DNA of 64,000 nt, taken from contig JADHVO010000002.1 of NCBI GenBank assembly GCA_016783965.1, forward strand, positions 310,001 through 374,000, read 5' to 3'. This document shows, one piece after another, positions 54,044 through 57,815 of this stretch. Position 1 is the stretch's first letter, and each line of letters opens with the position of its first letter. This DNA comes from Alphaproteobacteria bacterium. GTDB lineage: Bacteria > Pseudomonadota > Alphaproteobacteria > Micropepsales > Micropepsaceae. The position numbers and the translations under genes are program-made. The notes under the pieces are model-generated. The model did no database searches, was not told the origin of the DNA, and was given only the letters and a program-made list of their open reading frames with translations.

Positions 54044-54646
54044 CTAACTCACAGCTTCCTTGAACGCCGGCCGTGCGCTCAGGCGCTGGTAATACGCCTC
54101 CGTCCGCGGCTTGAATCCGCCGCGCATGTCGAGCGTTTCCGCGAGATACAGCGCGAAGCCGATCGCGATATCCGCGATCGTGAACCGCCCCGCGCAGAGA
54201 TATTCGCGGTCCGCCAGCGCCGCCTCGACCGACCGCAGCCGCGAGAAGAACCACTGCGTGTAGTCCTCCGCCGCCTGCTTCACCCGCCGCTCCTCCGGCT
54301 CAAGCCGCGTGTACCGCAGCACAATGGTCTGCGGAAACGTCAGCGTTGCGTCGCTGCGATGCAGCCAGTTGAGATACAGACCGTAGTCGTGCTCCTCCGG
54401 CGCCACGCGCAGCGGCGTCGGCCCATACTTGTCGACCAGGTACTGACAGATGCCGGACGACTCCGTCATCGTCAGGTCGCCGTCGGTGAACGCCGGCACC
54501 GTGCCCAGCGGGTTGATCCCCAGGTATCCCTCGCGCAAGACGCGCGGCGGAAACCGCATCGTCTCCAGCTCGAAGGGGATTCCCATCTCCAAGAGGGTCC
54601 ACAGCGGGCGCACGCTGCGTGCGCCCGGACAGTGGTACAGCTTCAT
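54044..54646 (-). CDS. Glutathione S-transferase
   Basis: 200 residues. The thioredoxin-like half begins LYHCPGARSVRPLWTLLEMGI with the active-site Ser/Cys region, and NPLGTVPAFTDGDLTMTESSGICQYLVDKYG holds the glutathione-binding SxS region. The C-terminal helical half has FTIADIAIGFALYLAETL. It overlaps the stop of the MDR gene (TGATG) and so is coupled. Confidence 0.92.
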   Translation of the reverse strand: MKLYHCPGARSVRPLWTLLEMGIPFELETMRFPPRVLREGYLGINPLGTVPAFTDGDLTMTESSGICQYLVDKYGPTPLRVAPEEHDYGLYLNWLHRSDATLTFPQTIVLRYTRLEPEERRVKQAAEDYTQWFFSRLRSVEAALADREYLCAGRFTIADIAIGFALYLAETLDMRGGFKPRTEAYYQRLSARPAFKEAVS

Positions 54647-55761
54647 CAGAGCGACGGATTGACGAGATACTTCTCGCCCGTGGCGCGGCGGTTGTACGCC
54701 GCCACCGCGTCGGCGCTCAGCATCCCCGGCAGCGACACCGTCCTCGTGTAGTGGCTCGCGAACGTCGTCTTCACCTCGTTCGCCACGCGCTGGCGCAGCT
54801 TCTCGGTCTCGGCCGGCCCGATCTTCATCAGGAACGGCGTCAGCAGCCAGCCGCCAAGGCCCCACGACATGCCGAACGCGCGGTTCAGCAGCGTCGGCCC
54901 GGTATCGAGCCCGCCATAGATGTACACCTGCTTGTAGGTGGTCGAACCATAGCGGCTGAAGCCCGGCGCCTTCTTCACCGCCGCCACCTCCATCGCGGTG
55001 AGAATTTGTCCGGCCAGCGGCCCGCCGCCGATCGCATCGAAGCCGATGGTCGCGCCGGTGTCGACCAGGGCTGCAATCAGATCCTCCATGAACGACGGCT
55101 TGGAGGAATCCACCACGTGATGCGCGCCGATGTCGCGCAGAATCTTCGCCTGCGCATCGCTGCGCACGATGTTCACCAGAGCGATCCCATCCTTCAGGCA
55201 GATCTTTTGCAACATCTGCCCCAGGTTCGACGCCGCCGCGGTGTGCAGCAGCGCCGTGTGTCCCTCGCGCCGCATCGTCTCGGTCATGCCCAGCGCCGTC
55301 AGCGGATTGACGAAGCACGACGCGCCTTCCGCCGCTGTCACGCCCGGATGCATCAGCAGGCAGTCCGACGCTTTCAGCACTCGATACTGCGAATACATCG
55401 CGCCACCGACCGCCGCCACGATCTTGCCCATCAGATGCTTGGCGTTGGCGCCTGCCGCAACCACCGTGCCAGCGCCCTCATTGCCCGCTGGCAGCGATTG
55501 CCCTGCGCGCGCCGCCATCGCCCGGCGCAGGCCTTCCGGCACCGGCGCCACGATCTTCGCGTCGGCCCCGCTGCCGGTGAACTTCGCAACGGCCATGTTC
55601 GCCGCGCCGAACAAAAGGCTGATATCCGACGGATTGATCGGCGTCGCCTCGACCTTGACCGTCACCTCGTCCGGTCCCGGCTCGGCCACCGGCACCTTCG
55701 CCAGCGACAGTTCGAGTTCGCCGCTGTCCTTGTAAAGCGTGCGAAGTTGAAGCCCGTCCAT
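54646..55761 (-). CDS. Zinc-free MDR oxidoreductase (quinone/enoyl reductase type)
   Basis: 371 residues. The N-terminal GroES fold has EVTVKVEATPINPSDISLLFG and GNEGAGTVVAAG, and the Rossmann region around IGFDAIGGGPLAGQI. No zinc ligands. It lies in an operon with the GST and is divergent from an SDR gene. This grouping suggests detoxification or lipid-derived aldehyde metabolism. Confidence 0.85.
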   Translation of the reverse strand: MDGLQLRTLYKDSGELELSLAKVPVAEPGPDEVTVKVEATPINPSDISLLFGAANMAVAKFTGSGADAKIVAPVPEGLRRAMAARAGQSLPAGNEGAGTVVAAGANAKHLMGKIVAAVGGAMYSQYRVLKASDCLLMHPGVTAAEGASCFVNPLTALGMTETMRREGHTALLHTAAASNLGQMLQKICLKDGIALVNIVRSDAQAKILRDIGAHHVVDSSKPSFMEDLIAALVDTGATIGFDAIGGGPLAGQILTAMEVAAVKKAPGFSRYGSTTYKQVYIYGGLDTGPTLLNRAFGMSWGLGGWLLTPFLMKIGPAETEKLRQRVANEVKTTFASHYTRTVSLPGMLSADAVAAYNRRATGEKYLVNPSL

Positions 55762-55855
55762 GTCATTTTCTCCCAGTTCAAAATTGCGGTTGGCTCAGCC
55801 TACACCCTATGATTTGGCCCAGGCCACAGGGCCAAAAAGAAAGGGAGAAGACCGC

Positions 55856-56620
55856 GTGCAGATCAGGGACAAGATCGTCGTCGTCACCGGCGCGGCATCG
55901 GGCATCGGCAAGGCGCTGGCCGAACGCTTCCACAAGGAAGGCGCCAAGCTCGTTGTCTGTTCCGACATCAACGGCGACGGCGCCGCGGTCACCGCCAAGG
56001 GCGTCGGCGGCATTTCCTTCAAAACCGACGTGTCGAAGGAAGAAGACATCCGGCACCTGATCGACACGGTCGAAAAAGACCACGGCCCGATCGACCTGTT
56101 CTTCTCCAACGCGGGCATCGGCTATGGCGGCGGCGCGGAGGTCTCGAACGAGCGCTGGGACCGCATCTGGGACATCAACGTCATGGCGCATGTCTGGGCC
56201 GCGCGGCATCTGGTGCCGCGCATGGCCTCGCGCGGCGGCGGCTATCTGTGCAGCACGGCGTCCGCCGCCGGTCTCCTCTCCCAGATCGGCTCGGCGCCCT
56301 ATGCGGTGACCAAGCACGCGGCCGTCGGCCTCGCTGAATGGCTCGCGATCACCCATGGCGACCAGGGCATCAAGGTCTCGGTCCTGTGCCCGCAGGCCGT
56401 GCGCACCGCGATGACCGCCGGCAATCCCGACGGCGTCGCCAGCATCGACGGCATGATGGAGCCATCCGTCGTCGCCGACGAATGCGTCCGCGCCATCGAG
56501 GCGGAGGAATTCCTCATCCTGCCGCACAGGGAAGTGCTGCAATACATGCGCAACAAGACCAACGACTACGGCCGCTGGATCGGCGGCATGCGCAAGCTCA
56601 ACCGCCGCTTCCGGGGTTAG
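55856..56620 (+). CDS. Short-chain dehydrogenase/reductase (SDR)
   Basis: 254 residues from GTG at 55856, which has GGGAGAAG upstream. The cofactor site VTGAASGIGKALAERF and the catalytic Y-x3-K in SAPYAVTKHAAVGLAE, with the Ser in STASAAGLLS, mark a classical SDR. Substrate unknown. It is followed 4 bases later by the oxidase gene. Confidence 0.93.
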   Translation: MQIRDKIVVVTGAASGIGKALAERFHKEGAKLVVCSDINGDGAAVTAKGVGGISFKTDVSKEEDIRHLIDTVEKDHGPIDLFFSNAGIGYGGGAEVSNERWDRIWDINVMAHVWAARHLVPRMASRGGGYLCSTASAAGLLSQIGSAPYAVTKHAAVGLAEWLAITHGDQGIKVSVLCPQAVRTAMTAGNPDGVASIDGMMEPSVVADECVRAIEAEEFLILPHREVLQYMRNKTNDYGRWIGGMRKLNRRFRG

Positions 56621-56624
56621 TTGC

Positions 56625-57815
56625 GTGAGCGCCTTCAACCGCCGCCGCCTGCTGCAAACCGCGGGCGCCGCCGCACTCGCGCCTTTCGCCGCTCGCGGCG
56701 CCGACGCTCCACCGCCGACCCTGCCCTGGCCCGACCGCATCCCGCCGCTCGCGCCCATCCGCGCCAGCACGGACCGGTTGTTCGACCTCACGGTCTGCCT
56801 GCGCCCGTTTCGCGCCCAAGGCCCGCGCATCGAGGCCGAGCATATCGGCCACGCGCTCGTCGTGCACAATTACGGGCATGGCGGCAGCGGCTGGTCGCTG
56901 TCCTGGGGTTCGGGCACGCTGGCGCTGCGCCTTGCGATGCAACGCAACCCGAGGGAGATCGCCGTCATCGGCTGCGGCGCCATCGGCCTCACCACCGCGA
57001 TCCTCGCCCAGGAAGCCGGTGCGAAGGTCACGATCTACGCCAAGGACCTCTTGCCCGACACGCGCAGCGCCCGCGCCACGGGCAGCTTCACCCCGGACTC
57101 GCGCATCGCGCTGACCGACAGGGTCGCGCCGGACTTCGGCGACAGGTGGGAAGAGATGGCGCGCATCTCCTTCCACCGCTACCGCCGCTATCTCGGCCTT
57201 CCCGGCACGCCCGTCGAATGGAACGACCGCTACTACCTCAGCGACTTCGGTCCCAACGACACGCCGCCGCCCAAGACTCCCGATCCCAGCGCGCTCGATT
57301 TCGCCGAATACACCGACCGCATCCGCGACCTGATCGGCCACTCGCAGGAATTGCCCGCCGACGCGACGCCATTCCCCGTGCGTGGCGTGCGCCGCGGCTC
57401 GACCATGATGTTCAACATCGCCGACTACGGCCACACGCTGATGCAGGATTTCCTCATCGCCGGCGGAAAATTTGTGAAGCACGAATTCCGTTCCCTCGCC
57501 GAGTTGGGCCACCTGAAGGAGAAGGTCGTCATCAACTGCCCCGGCTACGGCGCCCGCGCGCTGTGCAAGGACGAGAGCGTCGTCCCTGTGCGCGGCCAGA
57601 TCGGCTGGCTGGTTCCGCAGCCCGAGGTCGACTACGGCATCGCCTATCGCGGCGTGCTGGCGCTCTCGCGCAAGGACGGTATCTGCATCCAGATGGTCTC
57701 AGGCGGCGACATGCGCGGCTACGGCGACGACAACGAAACCGTGAACCGCGCCGAGTCCGAAGAAGGCGTGAACATCATCGCGGACCTTTACAGCCGCTTC
57801 CGTTCTCAAACTTGA
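56625..57815 (+). CDS. Tat-exported, apparently circularly permuted D-amino-acid-oxidase-like flavoprotein
   Basis: 396 residues from GTG. The Tat signal is NRRRLLQTAGAAALA (5-19). Next comes the block that normally ends D-amino-acid oxidases, LRPFRAQGPRIEAEHIG and VVHNYGHGGSGWSLSWGSGT (about 60-105). Only then follows the usual N-terminal FAD motif IAVIGCGAIGLTTAILAQEAGAKVTIYAK (112-140), and the substrate-domain part to the end. So the fold is permuted with respect to the standard enzyme. It should act in the periplasm on an amine or amino acid. It starts 4 bases after the SDR gene. Confidence 0.87.
   Translation: MSAFNRRRLLQTAGAAALAPFAARGADAPPPTLPWPDRIPPLAPIRASTDRLFDLTVCLRPFRAQGPRIEAEHIGHALVVHNYGHGGSGWSLSWGSGTLALRLAMQRNPREIAVIGCGAIGLTTAILAQEAGAKVTIYAKDLLPDTRSARATGSFTPDSRIALTDRVAPDFGDRWEEMARISFHRYRRYLGLPGTPVEWNDRYYLSDFGPNDTPPPKTPDPSALDFAEYTDRIRDLIGHSQELPADATPFPVRGVRRGSTMMFNIADYGHTLMQDFLIAGGKFVKHEFRSLAELGHLKEKVVINCPGYGARALCKDESVVPVRGQIGWLVPQPEVDYGIAYRGVLALSRKDGICIQMVSGGDMRGYGDDNETVNRAESEEGVNIIADLYSRFRSQT

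Follow-up and report, generated by a model that had tools for sequence, protein, structure and literature searches.

The gene at positions 56625–57815 (+ strand) of the window, the whole 64,000-nt stretch of DNA analysed, codes for a D-amino acid oxidase (DAAO)-like flavoprotein in which the chain is circularly permuted. The presence of the permuted order in the window protein is confirmed: it does not follow the canonical linear order, with the FAD strand first and the HNYGHGG block last, and all the conserved blocks of the DAAO chain are present, as judged by its rotated match to PF01266 and to a canonical profile. As far as sequence and models allow, the permutation is established, and the rearrangement is old, stable and natural, not an error, extending across several bacterial phyla. 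We estimate a probability of about 80 % that the whole is best explained by a naturally circularly permuted member of the DAAO/DASPO fold, exported by the Tat pathway and predicted to carry out an oxidation of the D-amino-acid type. The protein is best called a member of a circularly permuted sister lineage of DAAO, from which it departs in chain order and at the position of a substrate-binding tyrosine (human Tyr228).

The coding sequence has a GTG start and a TGA stop and specifies 396 aa, in a frame that an ORF check of the window found uninterrupted by stops; all the features described next are on the + strand. A Tat-type leader without a lipobox Cys occupies aa 1–26 (MSAFNRRRLLQTAGAAALAPFAARGA; 56625–56702). 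The moved block, aa 46–108 (56760–56948), is the counterpart of the C-terminal end of DAAO (approximately residues 269–335 of the human enzyme), and a structure model predicts in it strands at 52–63, 68–74 and 77–83 and a helix at 93–107. It contains Arg60 (56802–56804), the counterpart of human Arg283 and Rasamsonia Arg308, and the motif HNYGHGG (aa 81–87; 56865–56885), whose Gly87 corresponds to human Gly313 and Rasamsonia Gly335; the motif NYGHGGSGWSLSWG spans aa 82–95. After a link of about three residues in the model, the moved helix gives way to the FAD-binding strand and its GxGxxG (aa 111–121; 56955–56987), which form the N-terminus in the canonical enzyme; the GxGxxG itself is at aa 116–121 and the sequence IGCGAIGLTTA at aa 115–125. 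The part that superposes on residues 1–269 of pig DAAO comprises aa 109–396 (56949–57812; model residues 110–391) and includes Leu345 (57657–57659), at the position of the substrate-binding Tyr. The first-pass annotation had placed the C-terminal DAAO block before the FAD motif, and this is the order that we observe, aa 46–108 lying ahead of aa 111–121.

A phmmer comparison with solved structures matched Rasamsonia DAAO (7ct4) in three out-of-order pieces, with query residues 57–105 aligned to chain residues 325–373, 110–143 to 24–58 and 239–328 to 145–241. The same out-of-order pairs appeared in the three alignments examined (7ct4, E 1.8e-32; 6rkf; 8hy5) with a profile of alignment A2, which holds 76 rows including the window and leaves out the near-duplicates L133, L057, L054, L112, L098, L092, L122 and L128 from a total of 83 loci; alignment A1 left out L043, which has a stretch of N, and L021. 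The accompanying claim that the usual DAAO has the opposite order also holds: among solved structures the family profile matched 17 DAAO/DASPO rows, and every one of them has the block at its C-terminal end.

Rotation of the sequence restored a nearly complete collinear match. In native order, Pfam DAO (PF01266) aligned with aa 112–388 and reached only profile position 296 of 353 (83.1 bits); with the window protein rotated at aa 109, a single stretch ran from position 2 to 350 of 353 (93.7 bits). The best stretch against a profile of nine canonical bacterial DAAOs rose from 81 bits in native order to 139 bits in the rotated one. Using this profile on 44 diverse permuted proteins, the median best stretch was 81 bits and 74 % of the profile for native sequences, 143 bits and 97 % after rotation at the proposed site, and 101 bits and 57 % for random cut points. 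Rotated sequences scored above random cuts in all 44 rows and above native ones in 43, the remaining row being no better rotated. Whole-sequence phmmer scores were nearly unchanged by rotation (62.1 to 61.3 bits for 7ct4, 53.1 to 54.7 for 6rkf and 40.3 to 41.5 for 6kbp), since such scores add up the pieces whatever their order; what rotation gained was longer single in-order stretches, seen in 6rkf and 6kbp and not in 7ct4.

The structure model, built with A2 as input alignment, had a mean pLDDT of 93.2 and a pTM of 0.88, a single-sequence prediction reaching a pLDDT of only 33.8. In the model the moved block has pLDDT values of 97–99 and runs straight on into the FAD strand at 111–115. The best Foldseek matches, among the best 33 rows, were DAAO and DASPO with TM values of 0.45–0.65; these modest values are expected, because a sequential aligner can use only one part of the chain. 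With VIA-align 2, model residues 108–390 paired with residues 2–263 of human DASPO 6rkf (Z 20.6, rmsd 2.7, 248 residues) and 110–391 with residues 1–269 of pig DAAO 1kif (Z 19.5, rmsd 2.9, 248 residues). Left unpaired were model residues 45–105 and DAAO from residue 270 to its end, which represent the moved piece in its two forms; among the VIA-align 2 matches listed, aa 45–105 did not pair with any canonical DAAO chain. This unpaired state reflects a limit of sequential alignment and does not indicate a new fold. We infer the spatial place of the moved block from the complementary gap, from its match in sequence and from the high confidence of the model. The first-pass annotation had proposed a permutation-aware superposition of a predicted structure on DAAO; in the sequential superposition, the core pairs with DAAO and DASPO and the moved block lies outside the paired ranges.

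At E < 1e-40, 17 of 61 near genomes and 13 of 385 from the window's class contained relatives of the window protein, and at E < 1e-50 so did 20 of 398 genomes of a phylum sample, the window's own genome being counted in each case. A scan of named-genome contigs with one sequence gave no match; an alignment-based scan did give matches, and at least 506 of at least 591 pattern stretches, one search pattern being a general FAD motif, encode some kind of relative. Motif order was examined in the best 80 loci, a kept set that leans to close relatives, and was permuted in all 80 of these from the at least 506 relatives; a search for other permuted members had been advised by the first-pass annotation. 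By phylum, 69 of the best 80 loci are from Pseudomonadota, seven from Acidobacteriota and one from Verrucomicrobiota, with three lacking a phylum. There is also a second, more distant permuted clade, with copies from Nonomuraea, Bradyrhizobium elkanii and Rhizobium ruizarguesonis; the sources of its loci (L189:5929–6981, L190:5929–6990, L164, L160, L161 and L132) include Nonomuraea and plasmid records of rhizobia. Locus L021:778–2052 (− strand), in a small genome of the window's class, codes for a DAAO-like protein that is also permuted, is more remote still (24 % identity) and has a leader that looks Sec-type rather than Tat. In Mesorhizobium onobrychidis pOM4 (L191:3926–4989) the permuted gene is split in two annotated frames and is probably a decaying copy.

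A tree of 44 rotated permuted and nine canonical rows placed the permuted proteins on one side of a branch with support 100/95, recovered in 100 % of 200 bootstrap trees; the tree is unrooted, uses the model LG+G4 without mixture and contains the long branches P_L021, C_L049 and C_L022. The combined set was reduced from 134 rows to 53 by dropping L150, in which no RPxR was found, and near-identical rows, and its canonical part is small (nine rows, six of them from Actinomycetes and all but two from a plasmid collection). A single origin of the permuted form would be the simplest reading of these sequences, the root and the three long branches leaving room for others. At E 1e-20, the canonical profile matched 12 of 372 class genomes, one of them with a canonical protein (G271, itself a profile row) and eleven with permuted proteins aligned over part of the profile; a canonical copy also occurs in one same-genus genome outside the class sample (L049 of G035). 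Canonical order is rarer than permuted order in the class sample (1/372 versus 13/385, in searches that differ in query and cut-off).

These data bear on two alternatives that would do away with a permutation. That the gene is a shuffled pseudogene, or an artefact of gene calling, of a frameshift or of assembly, is extremely improbable: nothing in the window favours it, the split copy of pOM4 being located elsewhere, and against it stand the open frame of the gene, the matches at E < 1e-40 in both near and class genomes and the invariance of the Arg and Gly positions. Chance is excluded, because the order is identical in 80 of 80 kept named loci. The other alternative, which the first-pass annotation had itself named, is that the first block is an added domain and that a normal C-terminal FAD block is also present. 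Among the alignments examined, however, the C-terminal end of DAAO was matched solely by the N-terminal block, and the final helix of the model (375–390), with which the chain ends, falls within the range that pairs with DAAO 1–269; no second, normal C-terminal DAAO block was found in the window protein in the alignments, the profile or the model. The added-domain reading is refuted by the alignments, the A2 profile, the model and VIA-align 2, and its chances are negligible.

According to excerpts of PMC5715370, human DAAO binds the substrate carboxylate with Arg283 and Tyr228 and the amine with the carbonyl of Gly313, and a lid at 217–227 closes the site; the equivalents in Rasamsonia DAAO are Arg308, Tyr244 and Gly335 in excerpts of PMC6697736. 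In the gap-free 7ct4 alignment Arg60 falls on Arg308 and Gly87 on Gly335, an assignment that uses a 20-residue offset of the 7ct4 chain deduced from the residue numbers in those excerpts of PMC6697736. Both counterparts are invariant, in 76 of 76 rows of A2 and 53 of 53 rows of the combined set. The counterpart of Tyr228 is Leu345 in the window protein, and Tyr is found at this position in 13 of 44 permuted and six of nine canonical rows. All 11 permuted rows outside the core clade keep the Tyr, whereas 31 of the 33 core-clade rows have Ser, Leu, Asn, Gly, Gln or Met instead, and in the window's clade the residue is mostly Ser. The lid is short, the model having a two-residue turn between the strands that flank it. 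Because the Tyr is kept outside the core clade and mostly lost inside it, the usual site was most likely present in the permuted ancestor and would have been altered later in the window's clade. The loss of this Tyr is what speaks most strongly against an ordinary DAAO.

The first-pass annotation also proposed a Tat signal. The window protein has the leader MSAFNRRRLLQTAG..., with the twin-arginine motif NRRRLLQ (the twin arginine is contained in MSAFNRRRLLQTAGAAALAPFAARGADA), and conservation of R6/R7 reaches 90 % or more across the 76 A2 rows, the window included. Among the best 80 named loci, RR occurs within the first 45 residues in 77, a count that may be inflated by the script that picked start sites, which favours Met and then [RK]R; no twin-arginine was found in the leaders of the other three (L072, L079 and L081), where start sites are unsure. 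A lipobox Cys is present as well in 47 of these 80 loci and absent from the window leader; more than half of the best 80 relatives look lipid-anchored, and the window copy looks soluble. As the twin-arginine leader is conserved, the folded protein would leave the cytoplasm with its bound FAD by the Tat pathway; the proposed signal is thus present and conserved, and export itself is predicted.

In the window, a short-chain dehydrogenase (SDR) gene (55760–56620, + strand) ends four bases before the start of the permuted gene and is its probable operon partner. A zinc-type alcohol dehydrogenase (ADH)-like gene, named by eye from the sequence, is on the − strand and divergent from the SDR gene (together 54646–56620), their starts overlapping by two bases. 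On the other side, a tyrosinase gene (PF00264; 57860–59599, − strand) is a convergent neighbour, and its product has a Tat-like leader (TRRRFIG) and, behind the copper domain, a long linker rich in proline. A close SDR homologue (85 %) lies beside the permuted gene in one of 17 related loci, and weak ones (22–29 % identity) lie within the locus in four more. Among these 17 loci, L200 is the only one with SDR, ADH, tyrosinase and kinase genes in the same array as the window, the whole ADH-SDR-DAAO-tyrosinase-kinase block being conserved there. The ADH-SDR pair is 85–86 % conserved in L200, above DAAO itself (64 %). A DAAO-tyrosinase system was rejected, given that tyrosinase adjoins DAAO in one of the 17 related loci, which represent 15 genomes and include several contigs too short to tell on tyrosinase, and is on the opposite strand. 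Of the two Tat oxidases side by side described in the first-pass annotation, the adjacency and the Tat-like leader stand, but a meaningful pair does not find support in a convergent arrangement present in 1/17 loci; in its interpretation as a whole, the permutation and the Tat motif hold and the pairing with tyrosinase is weak. The SDR, ADH and tyrosinase neighbours do not point to D-amino acids.

In other lineages, clustering revealed, in 11 of the 80 best named loci, a small exported c-type cytochrome gene on the same strand and starting at most 18 nt from the last sense codon, its family (Cytochrome_CBB3) being identified from the one representative scanned. A direct CxxCHG scan of all the loci collected counted 17 loci with cytochrome c, 104 without and two not assessable. 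The 17 loci form exactly one clade (one change, 0 of 500 shuffles as low) in a FastTree analysis for which the program warned of long branches meeting; this one-clade gain of an exported cytochrome c gene behind the enzyme includes L086:6122–6571, L107:6116–6529 and 15 more loci. A plasmid of Kozakia baliensis carries a run formed by a D-amino acid dehydrogenase-like gene, a serine hydrolase (PF00144), an S9 peptidase, the permuted DAAO and a cytochrome c, which the record also annotates beside the permuted enzyme. The dehydrogenase-like gene reaches 361 bits, below the NCBIfam cut-off of 383, and the hydrolase has AmpH as its best NCBIfam model, with 52 bits against a cut-off of 266. Four Dyella loci have a PF00144-type hydrolase after the permuted gene (clustering, with one representative scanned), and the permuted gene is flanked by S9 peptidases in two loci of Caulobacterales.

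Directly downstream of the permuted gene in the second clade, a TPP enzyme is encoded, with an indolepyruvate/phenylpyruvate decarboxylase as best model (207 bits in L189, under the cut-off of 554.5; L190 and L191 are likewise annotated as TPP enzyme). An alpha-keto acid would be the substrate of such a decarboxylase-like neighbour, in keeping with a permuted enzyme whose products are alpha-keto acids. In L189 and L190 the permuted gene is situated between genes for an FAD-binding oxidoreductase (of berberine-bridge type in L189) and the TPP enzyme, an arrangement suggestive of a small gene cluster for the use of an alpha-keto acid. Neighbour clustering yielded mostly lineage-bound neighbours (helicases, regulators, a GTPase), and recurrence next door was limited to cytochrome c and, more loosely, to TonB receptors and hydrolases of the S9 or beta-lactamase-fold type; for the adjacent proteins of L089 (600 aa) and L096 (917 aa), Pfam gave no match at E 1e-8.

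The cytochrome c gene directly downstream in one subclade suggests that some members may be dehydrogenases, and the permuted flavoprotein could then be a respiratory dehydrogenase that hands electrons to an exported cytochrome c and produces little hydrogen peroxide. This is possible, at somewhat less than even odds: the downstream gene is found in 17 of 121 assessable loci, all of one clade, the clustering and the Kozakia annotation agreeing with it, but the window and 104 other assessable loci do not have such a gene among the adjacent genes scanned. The lost Tyr and the short lid of the core clade suggest, in turn, that the substrate may have changed, and the permuted fold might now serve a secondary amine, an alpha-hydroxy acid or a glycine-like or peptide-derived amine and not be a D-amino-acid enzyme. 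The varied neighbours (SDR, TonB receptors, S9 and beta-lactamase-fold hydrolases) would be consistent with such a change; nevertheless, we consider it less likely than not, given the invariance in 53 of 53 rows of the positions for carboxylate (Arg) and amine (Gly), and the D-amino acid dehydrogenase-like neighbour in Kozakia. Our preferred reading is a permuted enzyme predicted to work like DAAO, whose substrate, from the conserved residues and gene neighbours, is most likely a small alpha-amino acid, probably in the D form; a turnover of D-amino acids with oxygen or a cytochrome as acceptor is a proposal of middling strength.

According to this preferred reading, an ancestral DAAO gene was re-cut, the break falling behind the final helix of the FAD/substrate part and ahead of the strand with the substrate arginine. 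The C-terminal strand-strand-strand-helix unit now precedes the FAD beta strand, with the old ends joined by a very short link, as sequence, profile and model show; the folded, FAD-bound protein would be sent out via Tat. From the conserved residues, Arg60 would hold the carboxylate and the carbonyl of Gly87 the amine; these residues and the neighbours suggest hydride transfer to FAD, yielding an imino acid and then an alpha-keto acid, and the electrons might be accepted by oxygen or, for one subclade, by an exported cytochrome c dedicated to the enzyme. More tentatively, and with considerable doubt, we envisage an ancient permuted lineage that split once from canonical DAAO, is the main form in the window's class and is in part an envelope-anchored, Tat-exported D-amino-acid dehydrogenase feeding cytochrome c, within a periplasmic scavenging of D-amino-acid peptides.

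DAAO is a textbook example of a flavoenzyme and a target for both biotechnology and drugs, and a conserved natural permutant offers a ready sequence set on which chain connections the FAD fold needs. Among the results listed for the open-access PMC literature, there was no report of a natural circular permutant of DAAO. The permuted lineage lets one ask how a permutation spreads and stays, and raises the question of whether the new N-terminus, with an export signal or a lipid anchor, favoured it. Proteins that the Kozakia and rhizobial plasmid records name only 'FAD-dependent oxidoreductase' can now be identified as members of this lineage, which also supplies exported candidates for D-amino acid oxidation.

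Among known systems, the window protein scored well short of the cut-off with every NCBIfam model examined (best 25 of 72 families), the matches being weak and of generic flavoprotein type. DadA (NF001933) shares with it the FAD, and respiration-linked amino acid oxidation is a plausible shared job; the window protein scores 16.2 bits against NF001933, below the cut-off of 383, and 54 of 76 A2 members match this model at E <= 0.001 (best E 1.8e-08). Unlike the window protein, the DadA-like protein of Kozakia has its FAD motif first. ThiO was the best NCBIfam match of A2 (E 7.3e-12, among the best 25 of 61 families). Glycine oxidase ThiO and monomeric sarcosine oxidase, which are cytoplasmic, belong to the same wider fold family (Z approximately 14–15), but they have the usual order, their N-terminal FAD strand pairing with the model from residue 107–111, and are less similar to the model than DAAO and DASPO are. 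The closest systems are DAAO and DASPO themselves (2du8, 1kif, 7ct4 and 6rkf), with Z values of 18–21 over about 242–249 residues of the model, which share with the window protein the pieces of the fold, the GxGxxG FAD strand, the counterparts of Arg283 and Gly313 and the HNYGHGG motif. The window lineage differs from them in its permuted chain, its Tat leader, its short lid and the absence of a C-terminal peroxisomal tail, as well as in the loss of the substrate Tyr from most of the permuted core clade.
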